Shown here piece after piece: positions 1 to 12,573 of a stretch of DNA of 20,131 nt. Both the position numbers and the translations under genes were made by a program. Every line of letters begins with the position of its first letter. Within the stretch, counting starts at the first letter, position 1. The stretch is from a virus. Where the stretch lies: IMG/VR virus record IMGVR_UViG_3300028422_001981, positions 1 through 20,131 of that record; one strand, written 5' to 3'. Under the pieces are notes generated by a model. The model saw only the letters and a list, made by a program, of their open reading frames with translations. It made no database searches and had not been told where the DNA came from.

Positions 1-519
1 AAATTTGCGGCAATAAAAAAATTACCTACAGGTAAAACAAATGGCGCAGATTTGAAGTATGAGCGTGCCATTGGGGAATTGTTACCTTCACTATTCTACC
101 CTTACCTTGATTTTGCGCAGGAACAAGCTCGTACAGACGACGGGGTCAGCATAAGAGATCTAATTTTCTATAACAGTCGAAGCCATGACTTCTTACGTGA
201 GATCATGGATGATTATGGGTCTCGCCAAATAACATTTGAAATAAAAAACGTAGATCACATAACACGAAATCATGTTGATCAGCTCAATAGATACTTACAT
301 GATGAGCTCGGAAGATTCGGGGTATTTGTTACGCGCAACCCATTAAAGAAAGCTGAGTTAAAAAGGACAATAAACTTATGGGCGGGACAGCGCAAAGCAA
401 TAATTACTTTGACTGATACAGATTTGGAACAAATGGTTGAGGTGTTTGACAGCAAGCAGCGACACCCACTTGAGTTTATCATCAGAAGCTACACTCAATA
501 CAGAAGACAGTGTCCATAA
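1..519 (+). CDS. PD-(D/E)XK-like nuclease, C-terminal part (5' truncated by window edge)
   Basis: The frame is open from base 1, so the gene begins outside the window; the TTG at 52 is only an internal codon. The visible 172 residues carry an early glutamate region (YERAIGELLPS), a hydrophobic strand with an aspartate (SIRDLIFYN), and a strand ending in FEIKN. They continue through a helix-rich stretch (QLNRYLHDELGRFGVFVTRN). An acidic residue followed by E-x-K on the next strand is the pattern of the PD-(D/E)XK restriction-endonuclease fold, so I infer a DNA- or RNA-cutting domain at the C-terminus of a longer protein. It lies 10 nt upstream of two small paralogous genes on the same strand, probably one operon. 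The DNA is AT-rich compared with the phage genes to the right. The exact family is not recognised. Confidence 0.6.
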   Translation, partial: KFAAIKKLPTGKTNGADLKYERAIGELLPSLFYPYLDFAQEQARTDDGVSIRDLIFYNSRSHDFLREIMDDYGSRQITFEIKNVDHITRNHVDQLNRYLHDELGRFGVFVTRNPLKKAELKRTINLWAGQRKAIITLTDTDLEQMVEVFDSKQRHPLEFIIRSYTQYRRQCP

Positions 520-529
520 AGAGGAAATA

Positions 530-913
530 ATGAAATCATCTGAAGATGTGGAAAAGTTAGAGAAAGTAATTGGCCAGCTCCAAGCCGCCCATACGGAAGT
601 AGCAGCTCTTTCGAAAAAATCACCGACTGATACTCTCAACCCATTTAAACTCAAAATAATAAATGCCGTACTTATCGAGTCAAACAAAGTACTTGGCAAA
701 AAATACAAGCCTTTTGTTGACTTCGAAATGTTCGACGAAGAAGATCTCCCAAGCAATAGTGATGTAATCATGATATTGGCTCAATACATGGGAGAAGCCG
801 AACGATTCAGATCTGACAATGTAACCATGGAATACGGCCACTGGTATTATGTAGTAAATGGAGGGACAAGTGATATTGAATCAGGCGCACCAAGCAAGGT
901 AGGGCGTAAATGA
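530..913 (+). CDS. small acidic protein, first of a paralogous pair
   Basis: The start is ATG 530, chosen because GAGGAAA (521-527) sits just upstream; the frame is open further upstream but that overlaps the nuclease. The 127-aa product is helical and acidic with no known domain that I recognise. Its core (LSKKSP, then KIINAVLIES, then DEEDLPSNSDVIMILAQY, then YGHWYY) aligns with the core of the next gene, showing an old duplication. It is 10 nt after the nuclease-like gene, and its stop overlaps the next start as ATGA, so the three genes are very likely co-transcribed and translationally coupled. It may be a partner or regulator of the nuclease, by context only. Confidence 0.75.
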   Translation: MKSSEDVEKLEKVIGQLQAAHTEVAALSKKSPTDTLNPFKLKIINAVLIESNKVLGKKYKPFVDFEMFDEEDLPSNSDVIMILAQYMGEAERFRSDNVTMEYGHWYYVVNGGTSDIESGAPSKVGRK

Positions 914-1335
914 TTAACTTACAAAATACAACAACAGAAGAAGCAGTTGCAACATATCATTCAACAAAAGATATTTTCTTAGGGCTTCTTAAAGAAATTC
1001 GGGAGCTATCAAAGAAAAAACCAGACGCGATAATGAGCACCAGCAAAGTCGGCATTATCAATCGGGTTCTGACTGATTTGAAGGTCATACTAAATGAAGA
1101 ACCAGAGGGAAAATATCTCGATATTTTAGATAACGACAACTTGCCCCAAATGAGTGATGCCGTACTGATTATGGTGCAATATGAAACCGCATTATCCTCA
1201 TTCAAAAAACGTTACTATCAAAGCTATGGGCATGGATACGCCAAGGAATGGACATGGATAACTACAGAATTTGTGAAGGAGTATCTAAGTGAAGAAAGTG
1301 AAGATAATGAATTCGAAGACGAGGAGACATCATAA
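910..1335 (+). CDS. small acidic protein, second of a paralogous pair
   Basis: This 141-aa protein starts at ATG 910, overlapping the previous stop (ATGA). It is a diverged copy of the preceding gene: ELSKKKPD, VGIINRVLTD, NDNLPQMSDAVLIMVQY and SYGHGYA occupy matching places. It differs by a longer N-terminus and a strongly acidic C-terminal tail (SEESEDNEFEDEETS). The family is not recognised. Retention of two diverged copies next to a nuclease-domain gene suggests a heteromeric partner, an immunity protein, or an acidic DNA-mimic type regulator; none of these is shown by the sequence. The gene ends about 20 nt before the first of three hairpin motifs. Confidence 0.75.
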   Translation: MINLQNTTTEEAVATYHSTKDIFLGLLKEIRELSKKKPDAIMSTSKVGIINRVLTDLKVILNEEPEGKYLDILDNDNLPQMSDAVLIMVQYETALSSFKKRYYQSYGHGYAKEWTWITTEFVKEYLSEESEDNEFEDEETS

Positions 1336-1354
1336 ACAATCGCAAGCACCGGGG

Positions 1355-1393
1355 TTAGGTCTTGAAGCGCCGTAAGATGCGGCTTACATCTCT
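1355..1393 (+). repeat. hairpin motif copy M1
   Basis: This is copy 1 of a roughly 40-nt motif also found at 2525-2565 and 3546-3584. The shared core reads GGTCTTGAA, then GCGCCGTAAG (1358-1376), a 6-nt loop and CTTAC (1383-1387), which forms a short stem. It lies in the 86-nt gap between the small acidic protein gene and the AlbA_2-domain gene; I see no gene in the gap. The distal part (accctatcgttgaatcaac) loosely resembles the 3' end of the BRCT gene at 3623-3641, so this may be a more decayed version of the same junction. Confidence 0.6.
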
Positions 1394-1421
1394 ACCCTAT
1401 CGTTGAATCAACTTACATCCG

Positions 1422-2411
1422 ATGCGAACCACCCTTATGGATAAGATTTCAGATTGGACAGAGAAAGACCTCCTTGCTCTGATCGACAACCAAGTAGAAG
1501 AGAACATCGAACTCGACTATAAGGCGTGCGGAGCGTTACAGAACACGGACAAGAAGAAGACTGAAATCAGCAAGGATGTCTCTGCGTTCGCGAACTCAGC
1601 AGGCGGGATTATCGTCTACGGCATCAAGGAGGAGGGCCACATACCCTCATGCTTGGACGATGGCTTTGACCCAGCGGAGATCACCAAAGAGTGGCTGGAA
1701 CAAGTCATCCACTCCAACATTCAACGCAAGATCGAAGGCATCCTCATCAAGCCTATACCACTACACAAGACCCACCCCGGAAGGGTCGCATACGTGGTCA
1801 GCATCCCACAGAGCACACGCGCCCCACACCAAGCCTCAGATAAGCGCTTCTACAAGCGGTACAACTTCACATCCGCTCCAATGGAAGAGTACGAGGTAAG
1901 GGATGTATCACGCAGAAATGATGGCCCCCTGCTTAAGTTGTCTTTCACGTCAATGCAAGTACATCAATGGAGCACGCTAGATCAGAAAAGTGCTGTACAG
2001 TTAGAAATAAGTCCAACTATCGAAAATCACTCAGAGATCCCAGCTGAATACATATCCATACAAATATATATTGATCAAAGCATTTCTAAGTTAGTGAGTA
2101 CCGGGGAATGCACCAAGACCAATACCGTCGTATCAAAACGTATCGACAAAAAGCAGATAGCGTTCAATACACTTCATATCAATCATCACACTCAGAACAA
2201 GTTACCTATCTTCAAAGGCACGGGATTTTCGTTGCTTTCGAGACCCATAATCATAAATGCTGAACTAGGCAATCCTTTTTATTTGGCATATGAGCTATTC
2301 GCTCCTCACATGGACATGGCCTCTGGAGCAACTAAAGTAATTCCTGAATCTAATTATTTCAGTTTTTCACCTGCTAGCATCGAAGATGTAGCGGAGTTTA
2401 TAGATGACTAG
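1422..2411 (+). CDS. AlbA_2 (Schlafen-type) putative DNA-binding domain protein
   Basis: Residues about 28-160 match the AlbA_2/Schlafen ATP- and nucleic-acid-binding domain: a glutamate-rich entry (ENIELDYKACG), then ISKDVSAFANSAGGIIVYGI, then a basic region with RFYKRYN. In this family the domain occurs in transcription regulators and in defence-linked proteins, with variable C-terminal domains. Here the C-terminal half (about 170-329) is beta-rich and not recognised. Neither ATG 1422 nor ATG 1437 has a clear ribosome site; 1437 (MDKISDW) gives a start more typical of the family. Base composition changes inside the gene: the 5' half is GC-richer and the 3' half, from about 1920, is AT-rich. 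That suggests a fusion of modules of different origin. Total length is 329 aa. Confidence 0.8.
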   Translation: MRTTLMDKISDWTEKDLLALIDNQVEENIELDYKACGALQNTDKKKTEISKDVSAFANSAGGIIVYGIKEEGHIPSCLDDGFDPAEITKEWLEQVIHSNIQRKIEGILIKPIPLHKTHPGRVAYVVSIPQSTRAPHQASDKRFYKRYNFTSAPMEEYEVRDVSRRNDGPLLKLSFTSMQVHQWSTLDQKSAVQLEISPTIENHSEIPAEYISIQIYIDQSISKLVSTGECTKTNTVVSKRIDKKQIAFNTLHINHHTQNKLPIFKGTGFSLLSRPIIINAELGNPFYLAYELFAPHMDMASGATKVIPESNYFSFSPASIEDVAEFIDD

Positions 2412-2448
2412 AGCGACTGACCAATGACCTGAAATCTTCCGATAGTAG

Positions 2449-2524
2449 TCATCCTATCACCTTCAACCTAGCCCGCTCAGAAAGAATGAGAATTCCACTC
2501 TCCTCATTCCGGTAGTTCAACAAG
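2449..2524 (-). pseudogene. remnant of a second BRCT gene 3' end
   Basis: The DNA at 2453-2521 matches 3624-3692, the 3' end of the intact BRCT gene, at about 60 of 69 positions by eye. Read on the minus strand it still encodes LLNYRNEESGILILSERARL followed by KVIG and a stop (2451-2449), against LNYRSEGSEILILSERGWLK and AIG in the intact protein. Nothing upstream of it matches; the copy stops abruptly and is followed by hairpin motif M2. It is therefore a fragment of a duplicated or recombined BRCT gene, evidence that the module 2.45-3.6 kb was inserted next to, or swapped with, a former BRCT gene. The gap 2412-2576 holds only this remnant and M2. Confidence 0.8.
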
Positions 2525-2583
2525 CCGTGTCAGATCTCGAAACGCCGTAAGCTTCTACTTACGTAGCGGCCAGCAGTCAGATC
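2525..2583 (+). repeat. hairpin motif copy M2
   Basis: The motif AGATCTCGAAACGCCGTAAG lies at 2532-2551. It is followed by loop cttcta and CTTACG (2558-2563), a perfect 6-bp inner stem with 2546-2551. AGATCT is present on both sides (2532-2537 and 2578-2583) and, being self-complementary, can close an outer stem. It overlaps the stop codon of the minus-strand toxin-like gene. It may double as its terminator, since TTTTT follows on the plus strand and the hairpin lies at the gene's 3' end. Confidence 0.6.
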
Positions 2584-3227
2584 TTTTTGTACCAGGAGTT
2601 GGTGCGGTTCTTGGGGTCAAAGTACCCAATGACGCAGTTGGGATTGATTACGCAGAGCTGAATGTGGTTTTTGGCTCTGAATCCGGCACCCTCGTAGAGC
2701 TCTTCTCCCTCAGGGAACATGCCTCTGACAGAGTCGATGAACTGGGGGTGATGCTGAATCTCACGTTTGTTGCTGCCTTCTGTGTTTGGCAGACCAAGCT
2801 CAGTCGCTATGGCTTCGTTATTGAATTGCTGAAGCCTCAGCATGACGTCGCAGTCCAGCTCTCGGCTCATGTCGATACCGTTGACCTTGGCTTTATTGGA
2901 GGGGAGTGCCTTGCCCAGCGCCATGCACTCTTGCACGAGGAGCTCGTGTGCCACTTTCACTTTAGCAAGGTCTTTGATATCGAGGAGCTCCAGGCAGTTG
3001 CCTAGTTTGATGAAGGCGCCTATGACGGCTGGGGTCTTGACGGTGTTGCTATTCTTGGCCCATTCCAGGGCCCGGTCGTAACTGCCTTCCCAGAAATACA
3101 TGCCGTGGCCGAGCCAGTCGTAGTTGTTGACGCTCTCCTTCAGACCCTCACCGCGCTTGATGACCTTATTGAACACGGTCTTATCACACCCATGAAAACC
3201 AACGACGATCTCGGGTGTTACATGCAT
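2577..3227 (-). CDS. putative ADP-ribosyltransferase-fold toxin-like protein
   Basis: The 216-aa protein has the N-terminal signature VVGFHGCDKTVF, followed by YDWLGHGMYFWEGS and ALEWAKN. A buried HG dipeptide, then a glycine-rich G-x-G-x-Y-F segment and a helix with A..WA, is seen in DUF3990-like and other ADP-ribosyltransferase-fold families (H of HG, Y of GMYF). I infer an NAD-using or related toxin/effector; the third catalytic residue cannot be placed with confidence. The start ATG 3227 lies 23 nt after the stop of a 55-aa gene on the same strand, the usual arrangement for a two-gene toxin-antitoxin-like cassette. It ends at motif M2. It could instead be an uncharacterised effector without a toxin role. 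Confidence 0.65.
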   Translation of the reverse strand: MHVTPEIVVGFHGCDKTVFNKVIKRGEGLKESVNNYDWLGHGMYFWEGSYDRALEWAKNSNTVKTPAVIGAFIKLGNCLELLDIKDLAKVKVAHELLVQECMALGKALPSNKAKVNGIDMSRELDCDVMLRLQQFNNEAIATELGLPNTEGSNKREIQHHPQFIDSVRGMFPEGEELYEGAGFRAKNHIQLCVINPNCVIGYFDPKNRTNSWYKKI

Positions 3228-3250
3228 GGGAGGGCTCTACGCAGCGTCGT

Positions 3251-3418
3251 TCAGGATGCGACCTTTTTGATCATGGCACCCTTGCTGTTGAGGATGCCTG
3301 CTCGCTTGAGGCTGAGTTCGATACTGCTGTTGGAAGGACGTGCCGCACTCTTAACCCTGCCGCCGCCTTGCTTGAGGGCCTTGAGACGCTTTTCGAGTTC
3401 TTTCTGAAGGTCGTACAT
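3251..3418 (-). CDS. 55-aa basic protein upstream of the ART-like gene
   Basis: This short gene runs from ATG 3418 to TGA 3251. The product begins MYDLQKELEKRLKALKQGGG, has a short leucine/lysine-rich helix, then a serine-rich basic segment (RPSNSSIELSLKRAG) and ends KGAMIKKVAS. It has no recognised domain. It is immediately upstream of the ART-like gene on the same strand with a 23-nt gap, so the two are probably one transcript. Position and size fit an antitoxin or accessory partner, but that is inference. The ribosome site is weak (AAAGG about 11 nt upstream). Confidence 0.6.
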   Translation of the reverse strand: MYDLQKELEKRLKALKQGGGRVKSAARPSNSSIELSLKRAGILNSKGAMIKKVAS

Positions 3419-3594: not shown

Positions 3595-3619
3595 TAAAAC
3601 TCTTAGGCTCCTGTGTGCC

Positions 3620-4519
3620 TTAACCTATCGCCTTCAACCAACCCCGCTCAGACAGAATGAGAATCTCACTCCCCTCACTCCGGTAGTTCAACGCCTGCTC
3701 GATCTTCCGCCCGTGGCTGGTAAAGCGCCAGTCCCGGCTGGCGATAGTCCCCAGCACCAGCAGGTCGAGCTTCTTGGTGACCGTCTTGCTGACGATGCCG
3801 CCCCTGCTCTTGGCGAGGCTCTCACAGGCACTGCGGGTGCCTGAGACGAACTTGCCGGTGAAGCAGACCACCTTCCCGGCCAGCTCGATGCCGTCGACGG
3901 CATCCGAGAAGACCTCGGCCACGGCGCCGTCGGCGCTGCCGGTCTCGTCGAAGCGCTGGCCGGAGAACTGCTTGAGTGTTTCGAGGAGGTCTGAGCGCTC
4001 CTCTTCATCCAGCACGCCATCGGCCATGATGGCCTCGATGCGCTTGATGAGCTGGTTGGCGGGCCAGGTGTCGGCCACCTGGGGGTTGTCGGCCAGCCAC
4101 TGGCGCAGGGCCTGGAACTCCAGGTCGGTGAGGCGGTTGTCTGCCGCCATGCCCATGAGCAGGCCGAGGAGTTGGTTGATGCTCTCCTCGGCGCCGCCGG
4201 TGCTTTGGTCGCCGTGGGCGAGGATGTCGTCAATCAGGGCGTGGAGTTGCTGGAGTTCAGCGGCGGTGATGACGCCGTCGGCAAGGATGCTGTCTACCGT
4301 TTCGAGCAGGTCCGAGACTTCGCCCTTGTCGGTGAGCTGCTCCTGGGAGCGCATCCAGGCGTCGAGGAAGAGCGCCTCGGCCTCGACCAGCACCCTGTCT
4401 GCCGTGATGCCGGTAAGGATGCCACGCAAGGCGGCAGCGGCCTTGTCGCGGTTGCGCTTGAAGTTGAAGCCGGTGAAGGCGGGTTGTCCGTCGTCGTCCA
4501 TGCGGGTGGGGGTAGCCAT
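3620..4519 (-). CDS. BRCT-domain protein with duplicated helical N-terminal repeats
   Basis: ATG 4519 is chosen because GAGGG lies about 8 nt upstream on the minus strand; a longer frame to 4693 would run through the divergent promoter. Residues 210-299 form a BRCT domain (GIELAGKVVCFTGKF, ESLAKSRGGIVSKTVTKKLD, LLVLG), like the one at the end of NAD-dependent DNA ligase, which binds DNA ends or phosphopeptides. Residues about 33-97 and 119-185 look like two copies of one helical unit: each has G-I/M-L-x-G-x-x-A-D, then a W-M/L helix, then I-x-A-D-G-V followed by acidic residues, recalling TerB-like repeats. No ligase catalytic domain is present. A broken copy of the last 24 codons lies at 2449-2524. 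The role is unknown; a DNA-damage or DNA-end sensing accessory protein is possible. Confidence 0.85.
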   Translation of the reverse strand: MATPTRMDDDGQPAFTGFNFKRNRDKAAAALRGILTGITADRVLVEAEALFLDAWMRSQEQLTDKGEVSDLLETVDSILADGVITAAELQQLHALIDDILAHGDQSTGGAEESINQLLGLLMGMAADNRLTDLEFQALRQWLADNPQVADTWPANQLIKRIEAIMADGVLDEEERSDLLETLKQFSGQRFDETGSADGAVAEVFSDAVDGIELAGKVVCFTGKFVSGTRSACESLAKSRGGIVSKTVTKKLDLLVLGTIASRDWRFTSHGRKIEQALNYRSEGSEILILSERGWLKAIG

Positions 4520-4557
4520 GGTGTGTCCCTCTGTAGGTCCGTTTCCCTGGAAGCATG

Positions 4558-4576
4558 ATACAGAGGTAATCTGTAT
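4558..4576. promoter_or_regulatory. palindrome in divergent promoter region
   Basis: A perfect inverted repeat ATACAGA (4558-4564), spacer GGTAA, TCTGTAT (4570-4576) lies in the 121-bp space between the divergent BRCT gene (start 4519) and the 124-aa gene (start 4641). It is the right size for a dimeric repressor operator and could control both. It resembles an inside-out LexA-like half-site arrangement but lacks the LexA spacing. Confidence 0.45.
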
Positions 4577-4640
4577 AGTAACAGCTAACACCATAAGGGC
4601 CACGGGGTCATCGACCCGCCCAGACAAGGAGCAAGTCACC

Positions 4641-5015
4641 ATGCAATACCTCATCCTCACCGAACGTGTCGCGGCAAAGAGCAGTGTTCTCAACGAGGAC
4701 CGCCAGCGCCTTTACTTCAAGGACAACCGGGGTAGACAGATCGGCTTCTTCGGTAGCACCAGCAGTACGCACAATCTGGACGCTCTACGCGATCAGCGGC
4801 TGCCTATTCTGCTGGCCGTACCGCCTGATCCTAATGCGGCGCGGTACAAGGGCAAGCTTGGGCTGGACGTTACGGTCTCGGAATCCACTCCCATCGTGCT
4901 GTTCCCCTATGATGACCAGCTGTTGACGATAGCCAAGCTCGCTAAGGATCCGGCCTTCCTAGAGGAGTACTGTGCGGGGCGTTGGATGGCGCTGTTTACC
5001 GGCTCAAGTAGCTGA
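4641..5015 (+). CDS. hypothetical protein, 124 aa
   Basis: The start ATG 4641 is supported by AAGGAG at 4625-4630; the frame stays open far upstream but only as the antisense of the BRCT gene. The product starts MQYLILTERVAAKSSVLNED, has an alternating strand/helix pattern (RLYFKDNRGRQIGFFGS, PIVLFPYDDQLLTIAKL), no transmembrane segment and no cysteines in metal-binding spacing. I do not recognise the family. It is divergent from the BRCT gene and shares its promoter region with the palindrome at 4558-4576. Confidence 0.7.
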   Translation: MQYLILTERVAAKSSVLNEDRQRLYFKDNRGRQIGFFGSTSSTHNLDALRDQRLPILLAVPPDPNAARYKGKLGLDVTVSESTPIVLFPYDDQLLTIAKLAKDPAFLEEYCAGRWMALFTGSSS

Positions 5016-5118
5016 TCTCCCACCATACGCACGCATACGCGCAGGTAATAGCTTGTTAATCACTTGGACGATAGACATGGTGAACCTCATGGAGATTTCT
5101 GTTAAGGCATTGATTACA

Positions 5119-5142
5119 CGTAACAACGAATCCGGCGTTACG
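5119..5142. promoter_or_regulatory. inverted repeat upstream of the zinc-ribbon gene
   Basis: CGTAAC (5119-5124) and GTTACG (5137-5142) are perfect complements separated by 12 nt, 26 nt upstream of ATG 5168. It could be an operator or a short leader hairpin. The rest of 5016-5167 shows no gene. Confidence 0.3.
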
Positions 5143-5167
5143 GGGTTTGGTTGCGGGGGTCAGTACG

Positions 5168-5533
5168 ATGCTTAAGCTGCTGGAAAAACTGATCAACGAG
5201 CACGGCTCGTCTACGGTCCTGCGCCAGCATCTTGTTCTGCTCAAGGCGGAATACGAGGCTATAGAGCGTAAGTGCGCCGATCTTGAGGCCAAGAGCTGCG
5301 CGCAGGAGCTTGAACTTGAGCAGGCAAAGACGCGCGCGGAGGCGCTTCAGCGCGAGCTGGAGGTGCTGAAGTCGGGCGCGCTTGCTACGTATGTTTGTGA
5401 TCATTGCGGTAGTCCTGATTTGACGCGGGTGGGTAGTCGACCTGATCCCATGTTTGGTGACCTGGGCATCAAGCAGAAGGTGTTCAGGTGCAACGCCTGT
5501 GGGCTGGAGAGTGCGTTCACTCCTGAGCGCTGA
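5168..5533 (+). CDS. coiled-coil plus zinc-ribbon hypothetical protein
   Basis: ATG 5168 is chosen because a GGGGGT stretch lies 9 nt upstream. The 121-aa product starts MLKLLEKLINEHGSSTVLRQ. It then forms a long charged coiled coil (about residues 22-80: LKAEYEAIERKCADLEAK and on) and ends in a two-knuckle zinc ribbon (CDHCG at about 89 and CNACG near the end, 30 residues apart). Proteins of this plan are frequent in bacteria and prophages and have no assigned function. The gene is convergent with the Mor-like gene, and a strong hairpin lies between them. Confidence 0.75.
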   Translation: MLKLLEKLINEHGSSTVLRQHLVLLKAEYEAIERKCADLEAKSCAQELELEQAKTRAEALQRELEVLKSGALATYVCDHCGSPDLTRVGSRPDPMFGDLGIKQKVFRCNACGLESAFTPER

Positions 5534-5554
5534 CACCTCTGGTTTGTGATGATT

Positions 5555-5580
5555 CGCCGCGCCCGGCTGTTGGCGCGGCG
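5555..5580. terminator. hairpin between convergent genes
   Basis: A perfect 9-bp GC-only stem (5555-5563 with 5572-5580) with an 8-nt loop fills the 47-nt space between the stop of the zinc-ribbon gene and the stop of the Mor-like gene. There is no U-tract on either strand, so it is a likely bidirectional, possibly factor-assisted terminator rather than a textbook intrinsic one. Confidence 0.55.
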
Positions 5581-5946
5581 TCATGCTACCCGCCCTCCCC
5601 GTTCCTGCCCTGTGCCCTCTTGGCACTCTCTCACTGCGCCCTCCCGAGCCTGCCCGAGAATATTCCGCACCTGCCGCTCACTGATCCCATAGCGCCGCGC
5701 CAGCTCGTGGTGGTTGTGGCCGGTGAAGTGGCGTCGGATGAGGGCGTTGCGCTGCTCGCGGGAGGGGGCCGGGACGTAGAAGCGCGTGCAGGCGTACTCC
5801 CGGCGCAGCTCCATGACGACGTCGTCGGCCAGGGCGGAGGCGGCGGACTCGCTGAGGCCGAAGGCGCGGCGGAGGCTGTCGGTCATGGCGCTGTGCAGCT
5901 CTACGGCGCTGTCGGTGTCGTGGGTGTGGGGCTGTTCTGTGGGCAC
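5581..5946 (-). CDS. Mor-family transcription activator-like protein
   Basis: The 121-aa protein fits the Mor/C activator family of phage Mu in length and pattern. A helical dimerisation part (LRRAFGLSESAASALADDVV) is followed by ELRREYACTRFYVPAPSREQ, then RNALIRRHFTGHNHHELARR and a helix-turn-helix (YGISERQVRNIL). In Mu these proteins switch on middle or late genes. GTG 5946 is taken as start because GGGAG lies 7 nt upstream; the longer frame to 6183 runs antisense to other genes and has odd composition. Which promoter it activates is not visible, since no late structural operon lies in the window. Confidence 0.8.
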   Translation of the reverse strand: MPTEQPHTHDTDSAVELHSAMTDSLRRAFGLSESAASALADDVVMELRREYACTRFYVPAPSREQRNALIRRHFTGHNHHELARRYGISERQVRNILGQAREGAVRECQEGTGQERGGRVA

Positions 5947-5959
5947 GGTGGGTCTCCCT

Positions 5960-6202
5960 CTACTGGCTGGGCGGGGTGTGCGGATGCGGTTCGTGAGGCG
6001 GCGTGGTAGTTTTGGTGGTGCACCCGAGGCGGCGGTTCCAGGCGGCTTCGGACTCGTCATCATCGAAGACGCTGAGGTATGTGCGTACGGGACCACGGGC
6101 GCCGCAGTGGCCGCAGCTGATGAAGGAGAGTTCTCTGCCGTCGGGGTGGGTGCCGTAGGAGTAGCCGACATCATCACTGGCACAGAAGGGACAATTGTTC
6201 AT
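5960..6202 (-). CDS. Lar-like zinc protein (restriction alleviation family)
   Basis: The 80-aa product begins MNNCPFCASDD, continues with ISCGHCGARGPVRT, and has an acidic linker (FDDDESEAAWNRRLG). The pattern CPFC, C-x-x-C, G-P and a terminal A-x-x-x-W-N-x-R defines the small Lar/restriction-alleviation zinc family common in prophages, thought to help foreign DNA survive restriction; the function here is by family only. ATG 6202 has an AAGAGGT ribosome site. It precedes the Mor-like gene by 13 nt on the same strand. Its start codon overlaps, on the opposite strand, the start codon of the HNH-like gene. The C-terminus is a low-complexity H/P/T tail. Confidence 0.75.
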   Translation of the reverse strand: MNNCPFCASDDVGYSYGTHPDGRELSFISCGHCGARGPVRTYLSVFDDDESEAAWNRRLGCTTKTTTPPHEPHPHTPPSQ

Positions 6203-6587
6203 GGTGAATACCTCTTGGAAGAATGAGATCAAGTACCCGGACCGGGCCTGCCGCCGTTGCGGCGGGAAGGGCTGGGGGATTGGGCATTACGTGGATGCCG
6301 GAGGGAACCCGAAGTATCCGTTTTACTGTTTGGGATGCGGCACGCGCATACCCGGCTTTGCCAAGCGCCGTGCGGTGGAGGCGTCGGGCGTGGCGGTGAA
6401 AGAGATGTTCCCGCTGACGCCGCCGTTTATCTGCGAGGTGTGTGGGGCCGAGGGGGCGGAGGAGCACCACTGGGCACCGACGCATCTGTTCGGTGACGAG
6501 GCGGACGGGTGGCCGAAGTCGTACCTGTGCCCGAGCTGCCATCGGCGCTGGCATGCGCTGGTGACGCCGAGGATGAGTGAGCGGTGA
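6201..6587 (+). CDS. HNH-like/multi-zinc-knuckle protein
   Basis: The 128-aa product has four CxxC-type knuckles: CRRCGGKG, CLGCG, CEVCG and CPSCHRRWH. Between the last two lies EEHHWAPTHLFG. The cluster C-x-x-C, H-H, then C-x-x-C-H-x-x-W-H recalls HNH endonuclease-type zinc-bound folds, often found beside terminase genes and in some phages needed for packaging. ATG 6201 is preceded by AAGGGA, with TTG 6195 as an alternative. It is the only plus-strand gene in this stretch. It is head-to-head with the Lar-like gene with overlapping starts, and convergent with the large terminase, 5 nt apart. Nuclease activity is not proven. Confidence 0.7.
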   Translation: MVNTSWKNEIKYPDRACRRCGGKGWGIGHYVDAGGNPKYPFYCLGCGTRIPGFAKRRAVEASGVAVKEMFPLTPPFICEVCGAEGAEEHHWAPTHLFGDEADGWPKSYLCPSCHRRWHALVTPRMSER

Positions 6588-6592
6588 TGGCG

Positions 6593-8812
6593 TCATAGCT
6601 TGCGGCTCCATTCTGATTTGGCGAGGCCGCTCCTGGAGGCTGGGCGTGGTTTGGGCCGGTGAGCGACTGGAGGCGTCTTGGTGGGCGCGGTTGCGGTTGA
6701 TTCCGCCGCCTGTGTGGCGCTGACGGCCTCCTGGGGCGGTGTCCAGCGTTTGGGCTTGGCGCTGGCCGGGAGGGCGAGCAGGCGCAGGGCAGCGAGTGCG
6801 TACACGAGCGCATCAAGCGTCTCATTCCGAGGGCGAAGCTGGACCCACTCGTAGCGCAGGCGGTAGCCCTTCTCCCGCGCGACCATGCGCTCGGCGGCGA
6901 GCTGGGCGAAGTACTCTTCATCGAAGCTCTCGGAGATGGGGAAGTGGATGTAGCGCGGGCCGGGCTTGGGCAGGCGGACGCGCTGGTAGATGAGGGTCTT
7001 GGCCTGGTCGACGCCGATGGGTTCGATGGGGGCGCCTTTGCGGCGGCGGTAGCGCAGGCGCTGTTTGCGTTTGCGCTCGTCTTCCACCAGGGGGCGGTCC
7101 ATGCCGGCGTTGCCTTTGATGGCACGGCACCAGGCGCGGGGCTGGACGAAGTCGGTGACCATGCTGGTGAGGTAGCCGGTGTCGAGGGCGGCGAGGTCTA
7201 CGCTCCAGGTTTTGAGGCCCTCTTCGAGGTCGGCCCAGACGTCGGGCTCTTCGGGATTTCCCGGGAAGATGAGGTGTTCCAGGAGCCAGCACTCTTCCTC
7301 GACGCCCCAGGCGACGATGGAGGCCTCGATGCGGTCTTTTTGTACGTCCACCCCGGCGGTGATGGCGAGGATGGGCAGGGCGGCGAGGGTGTGGAGGTAG
7401 GGCTCGCGGCGGTTGTAGAGCGGGAGGTCGGCGATGTCGTCGCCGGGTTCGGTGTACACGAGGCCTAGGTGGGTGTTGTAGAAGGCCTTGAGTTTGGAGG
7501 TGTCGCCCTGGGCCTCGATCCAGTCTTGGGCGATGTCGGCCCAGGTGACGCCGAGGCCGACGGGGGAGTAGAGGGCGTTGATGTGGTAGCCGCGGTTGCG
7601 CTTGATGTGGGGGCGTGCGGCGATCCAGCGGCCGCCCTGGAGGAGGTCGGTCTTGTGGGTCTCGGGGATGCGCACGCCGCACTCGGGGCAGAGGAGCCAG
7701 GCCTCTTGGACTTGGGCGCCGAGGGTGGCCTCGTCGATGACCTCGGTGACTTCGGGGTGGTCGGTGCGCCAGCGGAGGTTGTCGAAGTCGAGGGTGTGTA
7801 TGTGGCCGCAGTCGGGGCAGTGGATGTGGTAGCGGCGCTGGTCCGAGGCGCGGTAGAGCTGGTCGATGCGGGAGGCGCCCTCGACGGTGGGGGTGGAGAT
7901 GAAGTAGCTCTTGGCGCGGCCGGAGAAGGCGCGCTGGCGGTTGGCGATGAGCTTCATGGGGTCGCCCTCGCCGCCGACGTCCCAGGGGTAGGCGTCGACC
8001 TCGTCGCAGATGACGTAGGGGAGGTGCTCGGAGCGCATGGAGTCGGGGGAGTTGGCGCCGGATTTGATGACGCGGGCGCCGCCGTTGTATTCGAGCACTT
8101 CGGCGCTGTTGCGCTTGTCGCGCTGTTTGGAGCTGACTAGGTCGTTGAGCACGGCGGTCTCGGCGAGCATCTTGCGCAGGCGCGGGTTGAAGGTGCGGTC
8201 GCGCACTTCGATGCTGGGGACGATGAGCAGGAGGTCTTTGTTGCCGAGGTGGTGCATGACGTAGCCGAGCCAGTTCCACATGGCCTCGGAGCCGCCGACG
8301 CCGGAGGATTTCATGAAGGTGACGGAGCGCACGGGGCTGTGCTCGGAGAGGGCGTCCATGATCTCGACGAGGTAGGGCGTGCGCTCGTTGCGCCAGGGGC
8401 CGGGGGCGTTGGTGCCGGTGTCGAGGTGGCGGTGACGCTCGGCCCATTGGGCGACGCCGAGGAGGTCACGGGGCTTGAGGCCACGGGCGAGGTGGTGGCC
8501 GAGAGCGGGGATGTGGCTGGCGCGGGTGGCCTGGACGAGGGCGGCGCCGGTCTCGCGCAGGCTGTCGAAGACGGTCTCGGTGAGGCGCTGGTGGAGGCGC
8601 TCGACGGTGCGCTCGCCCTCGGTGGCGTCGAGCAGGGCGGCGGGGAGGTCGGCCAGCAGGCGGGCGAAGGGGCCGAGGGCGTGGCGGGAGGCGGCGCGCA
8701 GGTCGGGGGCGAGGACGGTGCCAGCCTCGGCGCGCTCGTAGGCGGCCTGGGCGTCTTCGGCGCGCAGGCGGTCGCGTTCGAGCTGCTCTTCGGCGAGGCG
8801 GGCGGTGGTCAT
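6593..8812 (-). CDS. phage terminase large subunit, GpA type
   Basis: This 739-aa protein is the ATPase/nuclease motor that cuts and packages phage DNA. It shows an ATPase A-loop (KSSGVGGSE, residues 168-176), Walker B (VICDE, 267-271), and two zinc knuckles (CPDC 332-335, CPEC 375-378). The C-terminal nuclease has acidic residues at D489 (AGVDVQKDRIE), D544 (ALDTGY) and D667 (RNETLDALVYALAALR). This layout is the GpA family of lambda-like phages. It is longer than lambda gpA (641 aa) because of a charged helical N-terminal region of about 110 residues and a P/T/A-rich tail. The start ATG overlaps the preceding stop (ATGA). No portal or capsid gene follows; the next gene is convergent. Confidence 0.95.
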   Translation of the reverse strand: MTTARLAEEQLERDRLRAEDAQAAYERAEAGTVLAPDLRAASRHALGPFARLLADLPAALLDATEGERTVERLHQRLTETVFDSLRETGAALVQATRASHIPALGHHLARGLKPRDLLGVAQWAERHRHLDTGTNAPGPWRNERTPYLVEIMDALSEHSPVRSVTFMKSSGVGGSEAMWNWLGYVMHHLGNKDLLLIVPSIEVRDRTFNPRLRKMLAETAVLNDLVSSKQRDKRNSAEVLEYNGGARVIKSGANSPDSMRSEHLPYVICDEVDAYPWDVGGEGDPMKLIANRQRAFSGRAKSYFISTPTVEGASRIDQLYRASDQRRYHIHCPDCGHIHTLDFDNLRWRTDHPEVTEVIDEATLGAQVQEAWLLCPECGVRIPETHKTDLLQGGRWIAARPHIKRNRGYHINALYSPVGLGVTWADIAQDWIEAQGDTSKLKAFYNTHLGLVYTEPGDDIADLPLYNRREPYLHTLAALPILAITAGVDVQKDRIEASIVAWGVEEECWLLEHLIFPGNPEEPDVWADLEEGLKTWSVDLAALDTGYLTSMVTDFVQPRAWCRAIKGNAGMDRPLVEDERKRKQRLRYRRRKGAPIEPIGVDQAKTLIYQRVRLPKPGPRYIHFPISESFDEEYFAQLAAERMVAREKGYRLRYEWVQLRPRNETLDALVYALAALRLLALPASAKPKRWTPPQEAVSATQAAESTATAPTKTPPVAHRPKPRPASRSGLAKSEWSRKL

Positions 8813-9024
8813 GCGCGGGGCTCCTGGTGGGCGCTGAGGGTGTTGGCGTGGTCGTCGAGGTGGGTGGCTGTGGTGTCGAGGTCGATGGCGATCTCGGCGC
8901 TGATCTCGTCGGCCTCTTGCTGGGCGAGGGTGTAGAGCGCGGCGGCGGTGTCGCCGAGCTGGGCGGAGAGGTCGCGTAGGCGGCGGCTGAGGCTCTCGCG
9001 AGTGATGGGGTCACTGGTGGTCAT
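8809..9024 (-). CDS. small phage protein between terminase subunits
   Basis: The 71-aa, acidic, helical protein (starts MTTSDPITRESLSRRLRDLS, continues QEADEISAEIAIDL) has no recognised domain. It overlaps the small terminase stop (ATGA) on one side and the large terminase start (ATGA) on the other, so it is translationally coupled to both and probably takes part in packaging or is stoichiometrically linked to it. The real-gene call rests on this coupling and on consistent GC-rich codon use. Confidence 0.7.
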   Translation of the reverse strand: MTTSDPITRESLSRRLRDLSAQLGDTAAALYTLAQQEADEISAEIAIDLDTTATHLDDHANTLSAHQEPRA

Positions 9025-9635
9025 GCGGTTTCTCCGGTGCTGGCGCGCAGGCGGCGCTGGGCGCGGGCGTGGTCGCGTTGCAGGGCGGCGGCGAGGCGGC
9101 GCACCTCGGCGTGGATGAGGTGGGCGCGGGTGGCGCGGTCGGCGGCCCCGGCAAGGCGTGGGGCGAGTTCGTCGATGAGGTGCTCCAGGGCGGCGCGGGT
9201 GCGGGCGCCGAGGCCGTAGGCGGCCTGGGTGACGTCGTCGAGCGGGTAGCGGCGGTGGGCGGCGAGGTCACGTTCCAGGCGGGCCAGGGCGTTGGTGTAG
9301 CGCAGGGCGGTGGCCTGGTAGCCGGCGCGGGATTCGTTGAGGGCGATGTCGGTCTCGTCCGGCTCCTCGGTGGCGGTGTGGGCGCCCTGCCCTGCTGCCG
9401 CACCGCTGGCCTGCGGGATGGCGTTGCCCCGCTCGGCGGCGTGCTGGGCCTGCAGGTCGGTGCGGTGGCCGGTGGTGGCGTGCCAGCGCTCGAGGCTGGG
9501 CTCGACCAGGACGCGGCCTTGGTCGTCCAGGACGAGGCGGCCCTGGGCGGCGGCGCGGGTGATGGTGCTGCGGGCGACGCCCAGGCGGCGGGCAAATTGG
9601 GCTTTGCTTTCGGTGGTGGGGCTATCGATGGCCAT
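9021..9635 (-). CDS. phage terminase small subunit, Nu1-like
   Basis: The protein starts MAIDSPTTESKAQFARRLGV and has a helix-turn-helix/MerR-like fold (ARSTITRAAAQGRLVLDD, VLVEPSLERW). It continues with a linker and a C-terminal helical region (YQATALRYTNALARLERDLA, AALEHLIDELAPRLAG). This order matches Nu1-type small terminases, which recognise the packaging site and contact the large subunit. ATG 9635 has GGGAG 8 nt upstream and gives 204 aa, a normal length. The same frame is open upstream to ATG 9929, which overlaps the replication gene stop (ATGA) and has GAGAGGG before it; that start would add 98 residues encoded by the iteron array. Both starts may be used. The core call is firm; the start is not. 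Confidence 0.85.
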   Translation of the reverse strand: MAIDSPTTESKAQFARRLGVARSTITRAAAQGRLVLDDQGRVLVEPSLERWHATTGHRTDLQAQHAAERGNAIPQASGAAAGQGAHTATEEPDETDIALNESRAGYQATALRYTNALARLERDLAAHRRYPLDDVTQAAYGLGARTRAALEHLIDELAPRLAGAADRATRAHLIHAEVRRLAAALQRDHARAQRRLRASTGETA

Positions 9636-9653
9636 GTTTTCAGCTCCCAGACG

Positions 9654-9919
9654 ATGTGACAGGGGATGTGACGGGGTATGTGACAGGTTTAATCTCTTTA
9701 ACCTTTTGATTTTTTTGATATGTGACAGATGTGACGGGCGTGACGGGTGGCGCGCGCGTAGGCGGGCGGGCGCGCGGGTGTGTGCGCACGCATGTGCGCG
9801 CATACGTGCGCGGGAGCCCGTCACGTCTGTCACATCCGTAACATGGCCATTAGAACAATGGGTTACGCACACAGAGCCCGTCACATACCCTGTCACATAG
9901 CCCGTCACATCCGTCACGT
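9654..9919. other. mirror-symmetric iteron array, candidate origin or initiator-binding site
   Basis: Thirteen 10-bp units of consensus RYGTGACRGR (A/T/G variation at the ends) are present. On the plus strand they start at 9654, 9666, 9678, 9720, 9729 and 9738. On the minus strand they occupy 9817-9826, 9826-9835, 9835-9844 (one mismatch), 9877-9886, 9889-9898, 9901-9910 and 9910-9919. Six plus units pair exactly with six minus units about position 9782, with spacings of 12, 12, 42, 9 and 9 bp on each side. The left 42-bp gap contains an AT-rich, T-tract stretch (9688-9719). The centre (about 9751-9812) is an alternating GC/GT tract with the palindrome GTGCGCAC at 9782-9789. Short iterons beside an AT-rich stretch, next to a primase-helicase gene, are typical of P4-like and SaPI-like origins. 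A terminase recognition site is the alternative. Confidence 0.75.
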
Positions 9920-9925
9920 TGAGGC

Positions 9926-12349
9926 TCATTGGTCCCTCTCCATGGCGTTTTTGAACTCCAGGATGCGGTCGGTCAGCCACTGCGTTTTGGTCTTGGCGGT
10001 GGGTTGGGCGCGCCCGGCGGCTTCCAGCACCTCCTGCGGCGGGATGATGACGCGCCGTTGGATGGGCTGACCGGTGTAGTGGGCGGTCTCGTAGTAGCGC
10101 TGTGGTTTGTGCGTCCAGCCGGTGAGCTTGCCGACGGTGCCGAGAAACTGGTTCGACTCACGAGGGTGCTTGACGCCGTTGGTGCGGCAGTAACGCAGGT
10201 AGAGTGCGTAGAGGTCGGCGCTCAGGCAGGGGCCGATGGGGACGCCCAACTCGCCATCGAGCCAATCGTCGATGAAGCGCAGCTCCGAGGGCTTGGAGAA
10301 GTTGATGAGTTCCTGCTTGGCCTTGGTCATCGGCGGGCGCTTCTTGGGGTGGAAGTCGCCGAGGTCAATGTTGAGCAGAAAGTGGTAGAACGCCTCGATG
10401 CCGCCGTTCTCGATCTCCAGCCAGAGCTTGTCGTAGAAGGCCTCGGACTGTGCGGGCGGTGTCCAGATGACGAGGTGTGGCCGGTCATCGTTGTCCAGCG
10501 GCAGCGGCTGTGATTCGTTGGAGTTGAAGATGACGTTGATGTAGTTGCGCTGGCGGTAAGCTGGCGTGTGTTTGCCGTTGACGCGCAGCCATTCGCCGGT
10601 GACCAGCTCCTTGAGCTCGTTCTTGATTTGCCACATCTCGGAGCGGGTGACGACCTCCTCGGCCACCAGCAGCAGTTTGCGGTCTACCCAGTCGTCGTTG
10701 AATTTGTCTTCGAGGCCGCGCTGGTTGAGCACGGTGGCGTAGCTGCCGTAGATCTTGGCCAGGACGTGGCCGAAGATGGCACTTTTGCTAGTGCCTTGGG
10801 GGCCGTGCATGATGACCGCCGAGGCCATCTTGGCGCCGGGGTTTTGCAGTGGGTAGGCCATCCAGCGCAGCAGCCAAGCGGTGAGCGACAGGGGGTCGTC
10901 CTCTCCGCTGCAGAGAAACTGGATGGTCTGGAGGATCATCTCGCAGTCGCCCTCTTTGGGCGTCAGCTCCCAGCCGCTCCAGGTGTTGAGTTCGATCACC
11001 TCATCCTTGCCGGAGGGGTCGAAACCGATCTGGTCTTCGTAAAAGGCGCCCCGCTGTTGCCATACGGGATCACCCTTGATCTCGTCCCAGCTGACCTTGG
11101 CGGGCAGGAGCGCGAGCATCTGGTCACGATGCACGCGGCGCTGAGTCCAGTAGTCGAAGAGGTGCTTTCCGGTGCCGTCGTCGATGGGCACGAAGCGCGC
11201 GATGGCGGCGTCCTTGCTCATGACCGAGACGGCCTTACGGCGGCCCTTGGCGTCTTCCCCCTCCCCCTCGCTGTTGGGCGGCGCGGCCTGATGGGGCAGC
11301 GCCCAACCGGCGCGCTCGATGGCCTGCTCGATCTGCACGCGCACCTGGGCGAGGTCGCCCTCTCGGTGGGTGGCCAGATCGTTGAAGTCGGTGAGCTTCT
11401 TGCCGTCACGATCAAACGGAAACTGTGGGACGCACCAAGCCCCGGCCACTGCCAGGGCGGCAGCGGTGGCGGCCTTGACGCCGGTGTTCTCCTTGCCGTG
11501 CTCTTCGTCGCAGTGGGTGCATAACTCCTCGGCGACGTTGGTCCACTCGCCGCAGGCCCGGCACTTCTGGATGTAGTCGTCGTCACCGCAGACGAGGAGC
11601 TGTACACCCTTGTGCGCCTTGGCCAGCGCCATCACCACCGGCAGCAGATTGCCCGCATCGAAGGCAACGGCCACGGGCAGGCCGGTGGCCTCGTGCAGGG
11701 TGGCGGCGGTGGCGTAGCCCTCGGAGACGAGGATGATGGGGCCGATCCCGCCGATAAGGTGGTAGTGACCGACCTTGTCGACGCCCTTGGGCCAGTACTG
11801 CTTTTCGAGCTTCTTGCCGCGATTCTTGCCCCGGATGATCTCCAGGCCGTGAATGCGCCCGGCGGCGTCCATCATGGGGATGGCCATGGTGCCGTGGCCC
11901 TCGGGGTCGAAGCGGACACCGTAGCCGAGCACCTGTTTGCGTGCGAGGTAGTCCGACTGGCCCCGGCGCGCGTAGGCACGCCAGACGCGGGTCGCCTCAG
12001 CGGCGGCCTTGTCGGCCTCGGCCTGACGGATCGCCTTGGCCCGCTTGGCGTTGGCCTTGTGGCGCTCAGCCAAAGCCCGGCGCTCGGAAGCGGTCAGACG
12101 CTTGGCCGCCGCCTTGAGCTGCACCTTGCGTTTGCCGTTGTCGTCGCCCTCGTAGACGCCAAAGGAGCCGACCAGGTAGAGCTGGCCCTCGATGGGGAAT
12201 TCACTCAGCCAGTACCAGCCGCGCTTCTCACTGCCACGGCCCTCGACCGTGACGCACTTCGGCCTCGGCGTGTCGACTTCCAGGTGGTCGATCTTCAGCC
12301 CGGCGGCGCGCAGCTGGTCGACCACATCGTCGTAGTTGACCCAACTCAT
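9926..12349 (-). CDS. toprim/primase-helicase replication protein
   Basis: ATG 12349 overlaps the stop of the preceding small gene (ATGA); GTG 12388 in the same frame is the alternative. The 807-aa product has an N-terminal region with a basic helix, then a toprim domain (LVSEGYATAATLHEATGLPV near 208-227, with the DDD of CGDDDYIQ near 256-258). A zinc knuckle pair follows (CRAC and CTHC, about 263-280). The C-terminal SF3/DUF5906-like helicase has Walker A GPQGTSKS (about 516-523) and Walker B LLLVAEE (about 559-565). This is the plan of P4-alpha-like and VapE-like proteins that start replication, unwind DNA and make primers. The iteron array starts 6 nt beyond its stop, so it is the obvious candidate to bind it. 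Its length is normal for such multidomain proteins. Confidence 0.9.
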   Translation of the reverse strand: MSWVNYDDVVDQLRAAGLKIDHLEVDTPRPKCVTVEGRGSEKRGWYWLSEFPIEGQLYLVGSFGVYEGDDNGKRKVQLKAAAKRLTASERRALAERHKANAKRAKAIRQAEADKAAAEATRVWRAYARRGQSDYLARKQVLGYGVRFDPEGHGTMAIPMMDAAGRIHGLEIIRGKNRGKKLEKQYWPKGVDKVGHYHLIGGIGPIILVSEGYATAATLHEATGLPVAVAFDAGNLLPVVMALAKAHKGVQLLVCGDDDYIQKCRACGEWTNVAEELCTHCDEEHGKENTGVKAATAAALAVAGAWCVPQFPFDRDGKKLTDFNDLATHREGDLAQVRVQIEQAIERAGWALPHQAAPPNSEGEGEDAKGRRKAVSVMSKDAAIARFVPIDDGTGKHLFDYWTQRRVHRDQMLALLPAKVSWDEIKGDPVWQQRGAFYEDQIGFDPSGKDEVIELNTWSGWELTPKEGDCEMILQTIQFLCSGEDDPLSLTAWLLRWMAYPLQNPGAKMASAVIMHGPQGTSKSAIFGHVLAKIYGSYATVLNQRGLEDKFNDDWVDRKLLLVAEEVVTRSEMWQIKNELKELVTGEWLRVNGKHTPAYRQRNYINVIFNSNESQPLPLDNDDRPHLVIWTPPAQSEAFYDKLWLEIENGGIEAFYHFLLNIDLGDFHPKKRPPMTKAKQELINFSKPSELRFIDDWLDGELGVPIGPCLSADLYALYLRYCRTNGVKHPRESNQFLGTVGKLTGWTHKPQRYYETAHYTGQPIQRRVIIPPQEVLEAAGRAQPTAKTKTQWLTDRILEFKNAMERDQ

Positions 12350-12573
12350 GCAGTCGTCACCCTGTTGCTGTTGCCTGTACGCCGACACGAAACCCTAGCG
12401 ATAGGCCGCGGCTCCACGCCCCCGCGTGCAACTGACTCCAGGGAGGACCCATGACCCGGAAGACCCACGCAACAACACGCGCTGTTGCGCCGAGGCACGG
12501 GCGAAACACGCAACGGGCGGCGGCCCGCCATCATCACGAGGGGAGCGGGGAACAGGAGGGGAAACTCAGGCAT
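12346..12573 (-). CDS. small unassigned protein, 75 aa
   Basis: The frame runs from ATG 12573 to TGA 12346. It has a good ribosome site (GGAGG, about 8 nt upstream). It overlaps the end of the preceding gene by 8 nt and the start of the replication gene by 4 nt (ATGA). The product (MPEFPLLFPAPLVMMAGRRP at the start, SVARGGVEPRPIARVS in the second half) is basic and proline/arginine-rich with three adjacent cysteines and no recognised domain; it loosely recalls small Ash-type phage proteins. The coupling on both sides is the main support. It could be a leader whose translation feeds the replication gene. Confidence 0.45.
   Translation of the reverse strand: MPEFPLLFPAPLVMMAGRRPLRVSPVPRRNSACCCVGLPGHGSSLESVARGGVEPRPIARVSCRRTGNSNRVTTA

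Follow-up and report, generated by a model that had tools for sequence, protein, structure and literature searches.

A two-arm iteron array downstream of a primase–helicase gene as a candidate replication origin in temperate phages

Introduction

Several described systems place a replication origin beside the gene for its own initiator. PICI origins lie immediately 3′ of rep, carry two sets of iterons and act as functional plasmid replicons (PMC6092414). SaPI Rep reads its iterons through a C-terminal domain, apparently as two hexamers, and Cch2, a SaPI-like helicase of SCCmec, uses its C-terminal domain to bind direct repeats located just 3′ of the gene that encodes it (PMC7581432). In pRN1 and the Bordetella phage BIP-1, an inverted element without iterons, described as a stem–loop, is found 3′ of a primase/SF3/winged-helix gene and has been proposed as the origin of both; BIP-1 is near-identical to phage BPP-1 (PMC4234260). 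Satellite phage P4 combines TOPRIM, SF3 helicase and winged helix in the single protein alpha; in the layout given by its record, alpha is directly followed at its 3′ end by the crr element (L183, 4291–4590), in which 8-bp repeats of both orientations are arranged as two direct 120-bp repeats, and the origin is bipartite, with ori1 about 4.7 kb from crr.

Here we analyse 20,131 nucleotides of viral DNA (the window; IMG/VR record IMGVR_UViG_3300028422_001981, positions 1 to 20,131), in which a first-pass annotation made from the letters alone had picked out short mirrored repeats between replication and terminase genes. We conclude that this array, at 9654–9919, is very probably the replication origin of a prophage, and that its probable initiator is the primase–helicase encoded immediately upstream.

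Structure of the array

The 20-kb window holds 12 exact matches to RYGTGACRGR, all of them within 9654–9919; shuffles of the window gave a mean of 1.06 and a maximum of 4. The first-pass annotation had counted 13 copies of this type; all of its coordinates hold and 12 of the copies are exact, whereas the thirteenth (9835–9844, minus strand, ATGTTACGGA) is a GTTAC variant with one mismatch in the GTGAC core. Outside the array, the motif is only scattered through the 4.58-Mb host genome at background frequency, with a total similar to that of a reversed-pattern control. No RNA family in Rfam matched within the window.

The sites form two arms. On the terS side, a plus-strand outer block (9654–9687; copies at 9654, 9666 and 9678, 12-bp spacing) is separated by a gap (9688–9719) from an inner block (9720–9747; copies at 9720, 9729 and 9738, 9-bp spacing). 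Across the centre (9748–9816) lie, on the minus strand, an inverted inner block (9817–9844; copies at 9817–9826, 9826–9835 and 9835–9844, the last being the variant), a second gap (9845–9876; 42 bp from start to start, 53% A+T) and the rep-side outer block (9877–9919), with four copies (9877, 9889, 9901 and 9910) spaced by 12, 12 and 9 bp. With 7 and 6 sites, the arms of the window are not exactly 6 + 6. Six pairs of plus- and minus-strand sites nonetheless share the sum 19564, which bears out the exact dyad at 9782 claimed from the first reading. Random placement of sites in the same two spans gave six pairs in none of 20,000 trials, but when the 9/9 and 12/12 block spacings were fixed and the gaps varied independently, six pairs appeared in 4% of trials; the information is therefore in the block structure and the equal gaps. 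What is remarkable is that blocks built and spaced alike are set in inverted order.

Three further elements of the first-pass description also proved real. The gap at 9688–9719, inside the terS-side arm, is T-rich (78% A+T between sites) and is a likely melting segment. The centre contains a perfectly alternating purine–pyrimidine tract of 35 nt (9778–9812), the longest in the window and Z-prone. The last iteron copy is separated by only 6 nt (9920–9925) from the primase–helicase gene, which ends at 9926. The minus-strand frame of terS stays open through the array (ORF 9021–9980), and the spacings in the window are multiples of 3, but relatives have spacings that include 8, 10, 11, 31, 32 and 43 bp, and coding was therefore rejected as the cause of the array.

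Gene neighbourhood and the Rep protein

The order on the minus strand is rep, array, terS, a 71-amino-acid ORF and terL. The rep gene (9926–12388, minus strand; phrog_2249) encodes a TOPRIM primase, a DUF5906 SF3 helicase and a C-terminal winged helix; its probable start is the ATG at 12349, giving 807 amino acids. The neighbouring genes terS (9021–9635, minus strand, start ATG at 9635; phrog_57 small terminase), which lies outside the origin, and terL (6593–8812, minus strand) encode the terminase, the large subunit of which is GpA-type. To the right of rep are genes for a CI-like repressor, a CII-like activator, a ParB-like protein and an integrase. Although int, repressor, rep, terS and terL are all present, no portal or capsid gene occurs before the end of the window, and we read the element, without these genes downstream of terL, as a possible remnant, satellite or rearranged prophage. 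The region downstream of terL (3600–6600) encodes a Mor-like late activator, a Lar-like zinc protein and a BRCT protein (phrog_3989). At the AT-rich left end (1–3300), we found matches to the candidate defence families PDC-M36A/B, a Schlafen AlbA_2 protein and a PD-T4-9_A-like protein, and this end is likely to be a defence island beside the prophage.

Among 42 aligned members of the Rep family (phrog_2249), the DUF5906 SF3 helicase is present in all 42 and TOPRIM in most. The AlphaFold model of Rep (mean pLDDT 89) has as its best structural matches the hexameric NrS-1 helicase region and SaPI5 PriRep1, and the NrS-1 region is also its best sequence match among solved structures (E = 8e-28). 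The NrS-1 helicase region forms a hexameric ring in crystals (PMC7102993). The model is that of a hexamer-type SF3 helicase bearing a winged helix at its C terminus. The last 130 residues (9929–10318, minus strand) are predicted with high confidence in the AF2 model (pLDDT 96) to fold as a winged helix (helix–helix–β-hairpin). Among the structural neighbours of this domain are winged helices of ORC proteins and 1ka8, the origin-binding domain of P4 alpha (Z = 5.0), a Z of about 5 being middling here and tied with unrelated winged helices; a Foldseek search with the domain alone returned no significant match. We propose that these 130 residues are the iteron reader.

Recurrence of the layout in related phages

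Single-protein scans for near relatives returned 2 viral contigs and no genome contig, so that an alignment query was needed; a profile search then supplied a sample of 80 viral and 80 genome loci. Scans of the genus, family and order of the host found no close copy. Two IMG/VR contigs with Rep proteins 43–45% identical to that of the window have a two-arm array between rep and terS with the iteron GGCGTAGTT (also that of L013), and Stenotrophomonas phage S1 (Rep 39% identical) has a two-arm array with the iteron GTGCGGG. In phage S1, the annotated hypothetical protein gp2 (L001, 2454–2804) corresponds to an ORF that runs straight across the array of iterons and is unlikely to be a real gene.

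Because a position weight matrix (PWM) motif finder is biased towards dyads and calls too many sites where arrays are GC-rich, we used the count of exact 7-mers as the unbiased test of recurrence. At least seven exact copies of one 7-mer occur in the 480 bp 3′ of rep in 95 of 132 non-redundant loci, compared with none of 5440 control windows drawn from the same loci. The PWM scan found at least four mirrored pairs in 87 non-redundant loci; as the loci are phylogenetically related, neither tally counts independent events. The mirrored layout is found again at about a hundred distinct loci of related phages and is not a local curiosity.

The family arrays comprise 12–14 sites over about 260 bp in a fixed two-arm geometry. 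The number of sites per arm peaks at six (111 of 214 arms), and the commonest pair is (6,6). The spacing seen in the window is kept at the same locus in its relatives, where distances peak at 9, 12, 31–32 and 42–43 bp; the common layout is one of inverted arms of about six sites, with 9-bp inner and 12-bp outer spacing and gaps of 31–43 bp. Symmetry is likewise largely retained: among 107 classifiable loci, the inner blocks are inverted in 98, and the outer blocks form a mirror image in 75; in 20 the outer blocks are repeated directly, and this group includes Pseudomonas and Halomonas phages. Groups that have the third copy in reversed orientation reverse it in both arms alike (L025, L028, L098, L103, L114 and L129; --+---+++-++), which suggests that the dyad itself is under selection.

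While the layout stays, the iteron sequence changes from phage to phage. Iterons that fit TGTNNNGG fully are found in 27 of 87 arrays, including that of the window, compared with 2 in shuffles. We rejected TGTNNNGG as a universal iteron, as these 27 arrays are a large subgroup and not the whole. Within the subgroup, the middle triplet is variable (GAC, GCA, GCG, TCC, GAT, GTT or ACC), and it may possibly be a specificity code for the winged helix.

An alternating centre and AT-rich segments

The alternating centre is also a property of the family. Its longest alternating purine–pyrimidine run has a median of 16 nt, compared with 6 nt in control windows. Runs of at least 16 nt occur in 61 of 111 loci (55%) but in only 0.07% of 12,288 controls, and runs of at least 20 nt in 31 of the 111 loci and in no control. 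In 100 of the 111 loci the run in the centre is over 3 nt longer than the average for mononucleotide shuffles (mean of 17.4 versus 6.4 nt). Alternating steps are not in excess in the gaps within the arms or in coding DNA (0.51 each, versus 0.65), and this 340-bp region holds the longest alternating run found anywhere in the locus for 82 of 106 long loci. The identity of the bases varies among loci, which use CG, CA/TG and TA steps; it is therefore alternation, and not sequence, that is conserved. From this pattern we infer that the centre could form Z-DNA.

Base composition follows a looser pattern. The A+T content of the centre averages 42% across the family, against 24% in the window. An AT-rich 25-mer (at least 80%) is present in 27 of 87 arrays, and in 17 of these 27 it is in the gap of the downstream arm, as in the window; an AT-rich downstream gap is thus a tendency, seen in 17 of 27 strong cases, and we rejected it as a universal melting site. 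GC skew, which had been suggested as a check, does not switch at the array (it increases in 32 of 74 loci) and provides no support for fork direction.

Linkage to rep and alternative functions

In most close relatives of the window, terS is the next gene after the array. Lambda-type cosB sites are also directly upstream of terS, and the terminase here is GpA-type, so the array could in principle be a packaging site (cos or cosB), the small terminase binding the repeats and the large terminase cutting at the dyad. The family argues against this. Halomonas phage H4907 and Pseudomonas phage PG1 both have the array after rep, with terS about 2–2.7 kb beyond it. The linear record of Pseudomonas phage pAN, with ends as deposited, begins 70 bp before terS and breaks between an HNH gene and terS; its array is about 2 kb from the record end, and terS is at the opposite end of the linear record. 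Several loci have arrays but no detectable terS or terL of the window type downstream. The similarity of iterons correlates with Rep identity (ρ = 0.34 for the helicase and 0.27 for the C terminus) and least with TerS (ρ = 0.16), although these correlations are weak and indicative only. The array does not stay with terS, as a cos site would, and the deposited pAN record ends next to terS and not at the array; the role once considered for the small terminase finds no support. A packaging function is highly unlikely; across these loci, the array is linked to Rep and not to TerS. We rejected covariation between the iteron and the Rep C terminus as proof of which domain is the reader, because it is weak and does not exceed covariation with the helicase domain.

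Two other functions were also weighed. In a stem–loop (cruciform) origin, as proposed for pRN1 and BIP-1 from inverted structures 3′ of a prim–pol/SF3/winged-helix gene (PMC4234260), the arms would pair with themselves and Rep would recognize the hairpin. The arms here are indeed inverted repeats over 95 nt, with 73% complementarity. Yet complementarity between arms is 70% in iterons, 44% in spacers and 30% in the centre, where composition alone predicts 25–32%, a pattern that fits protein-binding sites better than a hairpin; part of the excess in the spacers may come from degenerate iterons. Moreover, spacings and block orientation vary, and in the group that repeats the outer block directly the outer stem is removed. 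We consider a hairpin origin very improbable. In BPP-1 (L181, 4600–4720, 3′ of bbp29), tandem and inverted copies of a 9-bp repeat, TTTGCCTCG, within this stem–loop flank a 14-nt alternating purine–pyrimidine run, which raises the possibility that the BIP-1-type stem–loop is itself a reduced mirrored-iteron origin rather than a hairpin.

The array could otherwise be an operator array or terminator region that controls transcription of rep or the terminase without being an origin. It lies between two genes that are read in the same direction, and iterons often autoregulate their own Rep as well. However, it is 3′ of rep and so outside the rep promoter, it has the 12–14 sites and fixed two-arm geometry described above, and the same position is a proven origin in PICIs. 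A purely regulatory function is scarcely credible.

Comparison with known origins

An origin read by Rep remains our preferred interpretation. As in PICI, SaPI and P4-like rep–ori modules, the array is directly 3′ of an SF3 primase–helicase gene, has two oppositely oriented iteron sets (in the window and in 98 of 107 classifiable loci) and is accompanied by a C-terminal winged helix in the AF2 model of Rep (pLDDT 96), for which DNA binding is predicted. The two-sided initiator complex at an origin that was envisaged on first reading is strongly supported by comparison, through a layout that follows Rep in about a hundred loci, the predicted fold of Rep and the PICI and SaPI origins.

The pri–rep–ori modules of SaPIbov1, SaPI5 and EcCICFT073 share the position 3′ of a primase–helicase or helicase gene and the two sets of short iterons, and SaPI5 PriRep1 is among the matches of the Rep model of the window. 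Compared with published descriptions of PICIs and SaPIs, the array family differs in that it is carried by temperate phages that encode a terminase themselves (phage S1 and relatives like it are full phages), in that each arm consists of two blocks, an inner one with 9-bp and an outer one with 12-bp spacing, and in that the centre is alternating purine–pyrimidine and not AT-rich. AT-rich DNA, if there is any, tends to be inside the downstream arm; the AT-rich region between iteron sets of a strict PICI or SaPI origin is replaced in the window by an AT-rich stretch inside one arm. Rep here has a TOPRIM primase, whereas SaPIs have been reported with the AEP type.

P4 alpha has the same domains as Rep, and P4 crr shows the 9-bp and 43-bp spacings of the array family. 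The array is, however, a single compact dyad, with neither the bipartite organization nor the 120-bp direct repeats of P4, and no alternating purine–pyrimidine run of at least 12 nt is present in P4 crr or ori1. Like the elements of pRN1 and BIP-1, the array is inverted and 3′ of a primase/SF3/winged-helix gene, but its pairing is mostly within iterons and its centre is unpaired. With lambda-type cosB it shares repeats upstream of the terS of a GpA-type terminase, although its linkage follows rep instead. In the literature we searched, which included few subscription papers, we found no description of the origin of this family or of the alternating core. By analogy, the array would work like the PICI, SaPI and P4 rep–ori modules, and its 6 + 6 grammar and Z-prone core appear to be new.

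Proposed mechanism and implications

We hypothesize that Rep monomers recognize the 9–10-bp iterons (here TGTGACRGG) through the C-terminal winged helix, and that each arm assembles about six monomers into an SF3 hexamer. The inverted arms would place the two hexamers face to face across the dyad. Torsion generated by loading could be absorbed by the alternating centre, the T-rich gap of the downstream arm or both, either of which may be where the duplex opens. The helicases would then travel outward, the TOPRIM domain would prime synthesis and host enzymes would take over, establishing presumably bidirectional forks. PICI origins lend support by analogy to a mechanism based on Rep and iterons. 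A further, more doubtful idea is that a structural code (the number of sites, their spacing and purine–pyrimidine alternation) is kept while every base of the recognition sequence changes.

The family shows a plan closely similar to that of known rep–ori modules, with stricter geometry, across a large set of temperate-phage loci. As the layout is conserved while the iteron changes, these phages offer natural swaps with which to study the assembly of one ring on each side of an origin by a self-loading SF3 helicase. The conservation of a Z-prone core was not expected, the role of this core is directly testable, and the array pattern provides a means to mark origins in unannotated phage genomes.
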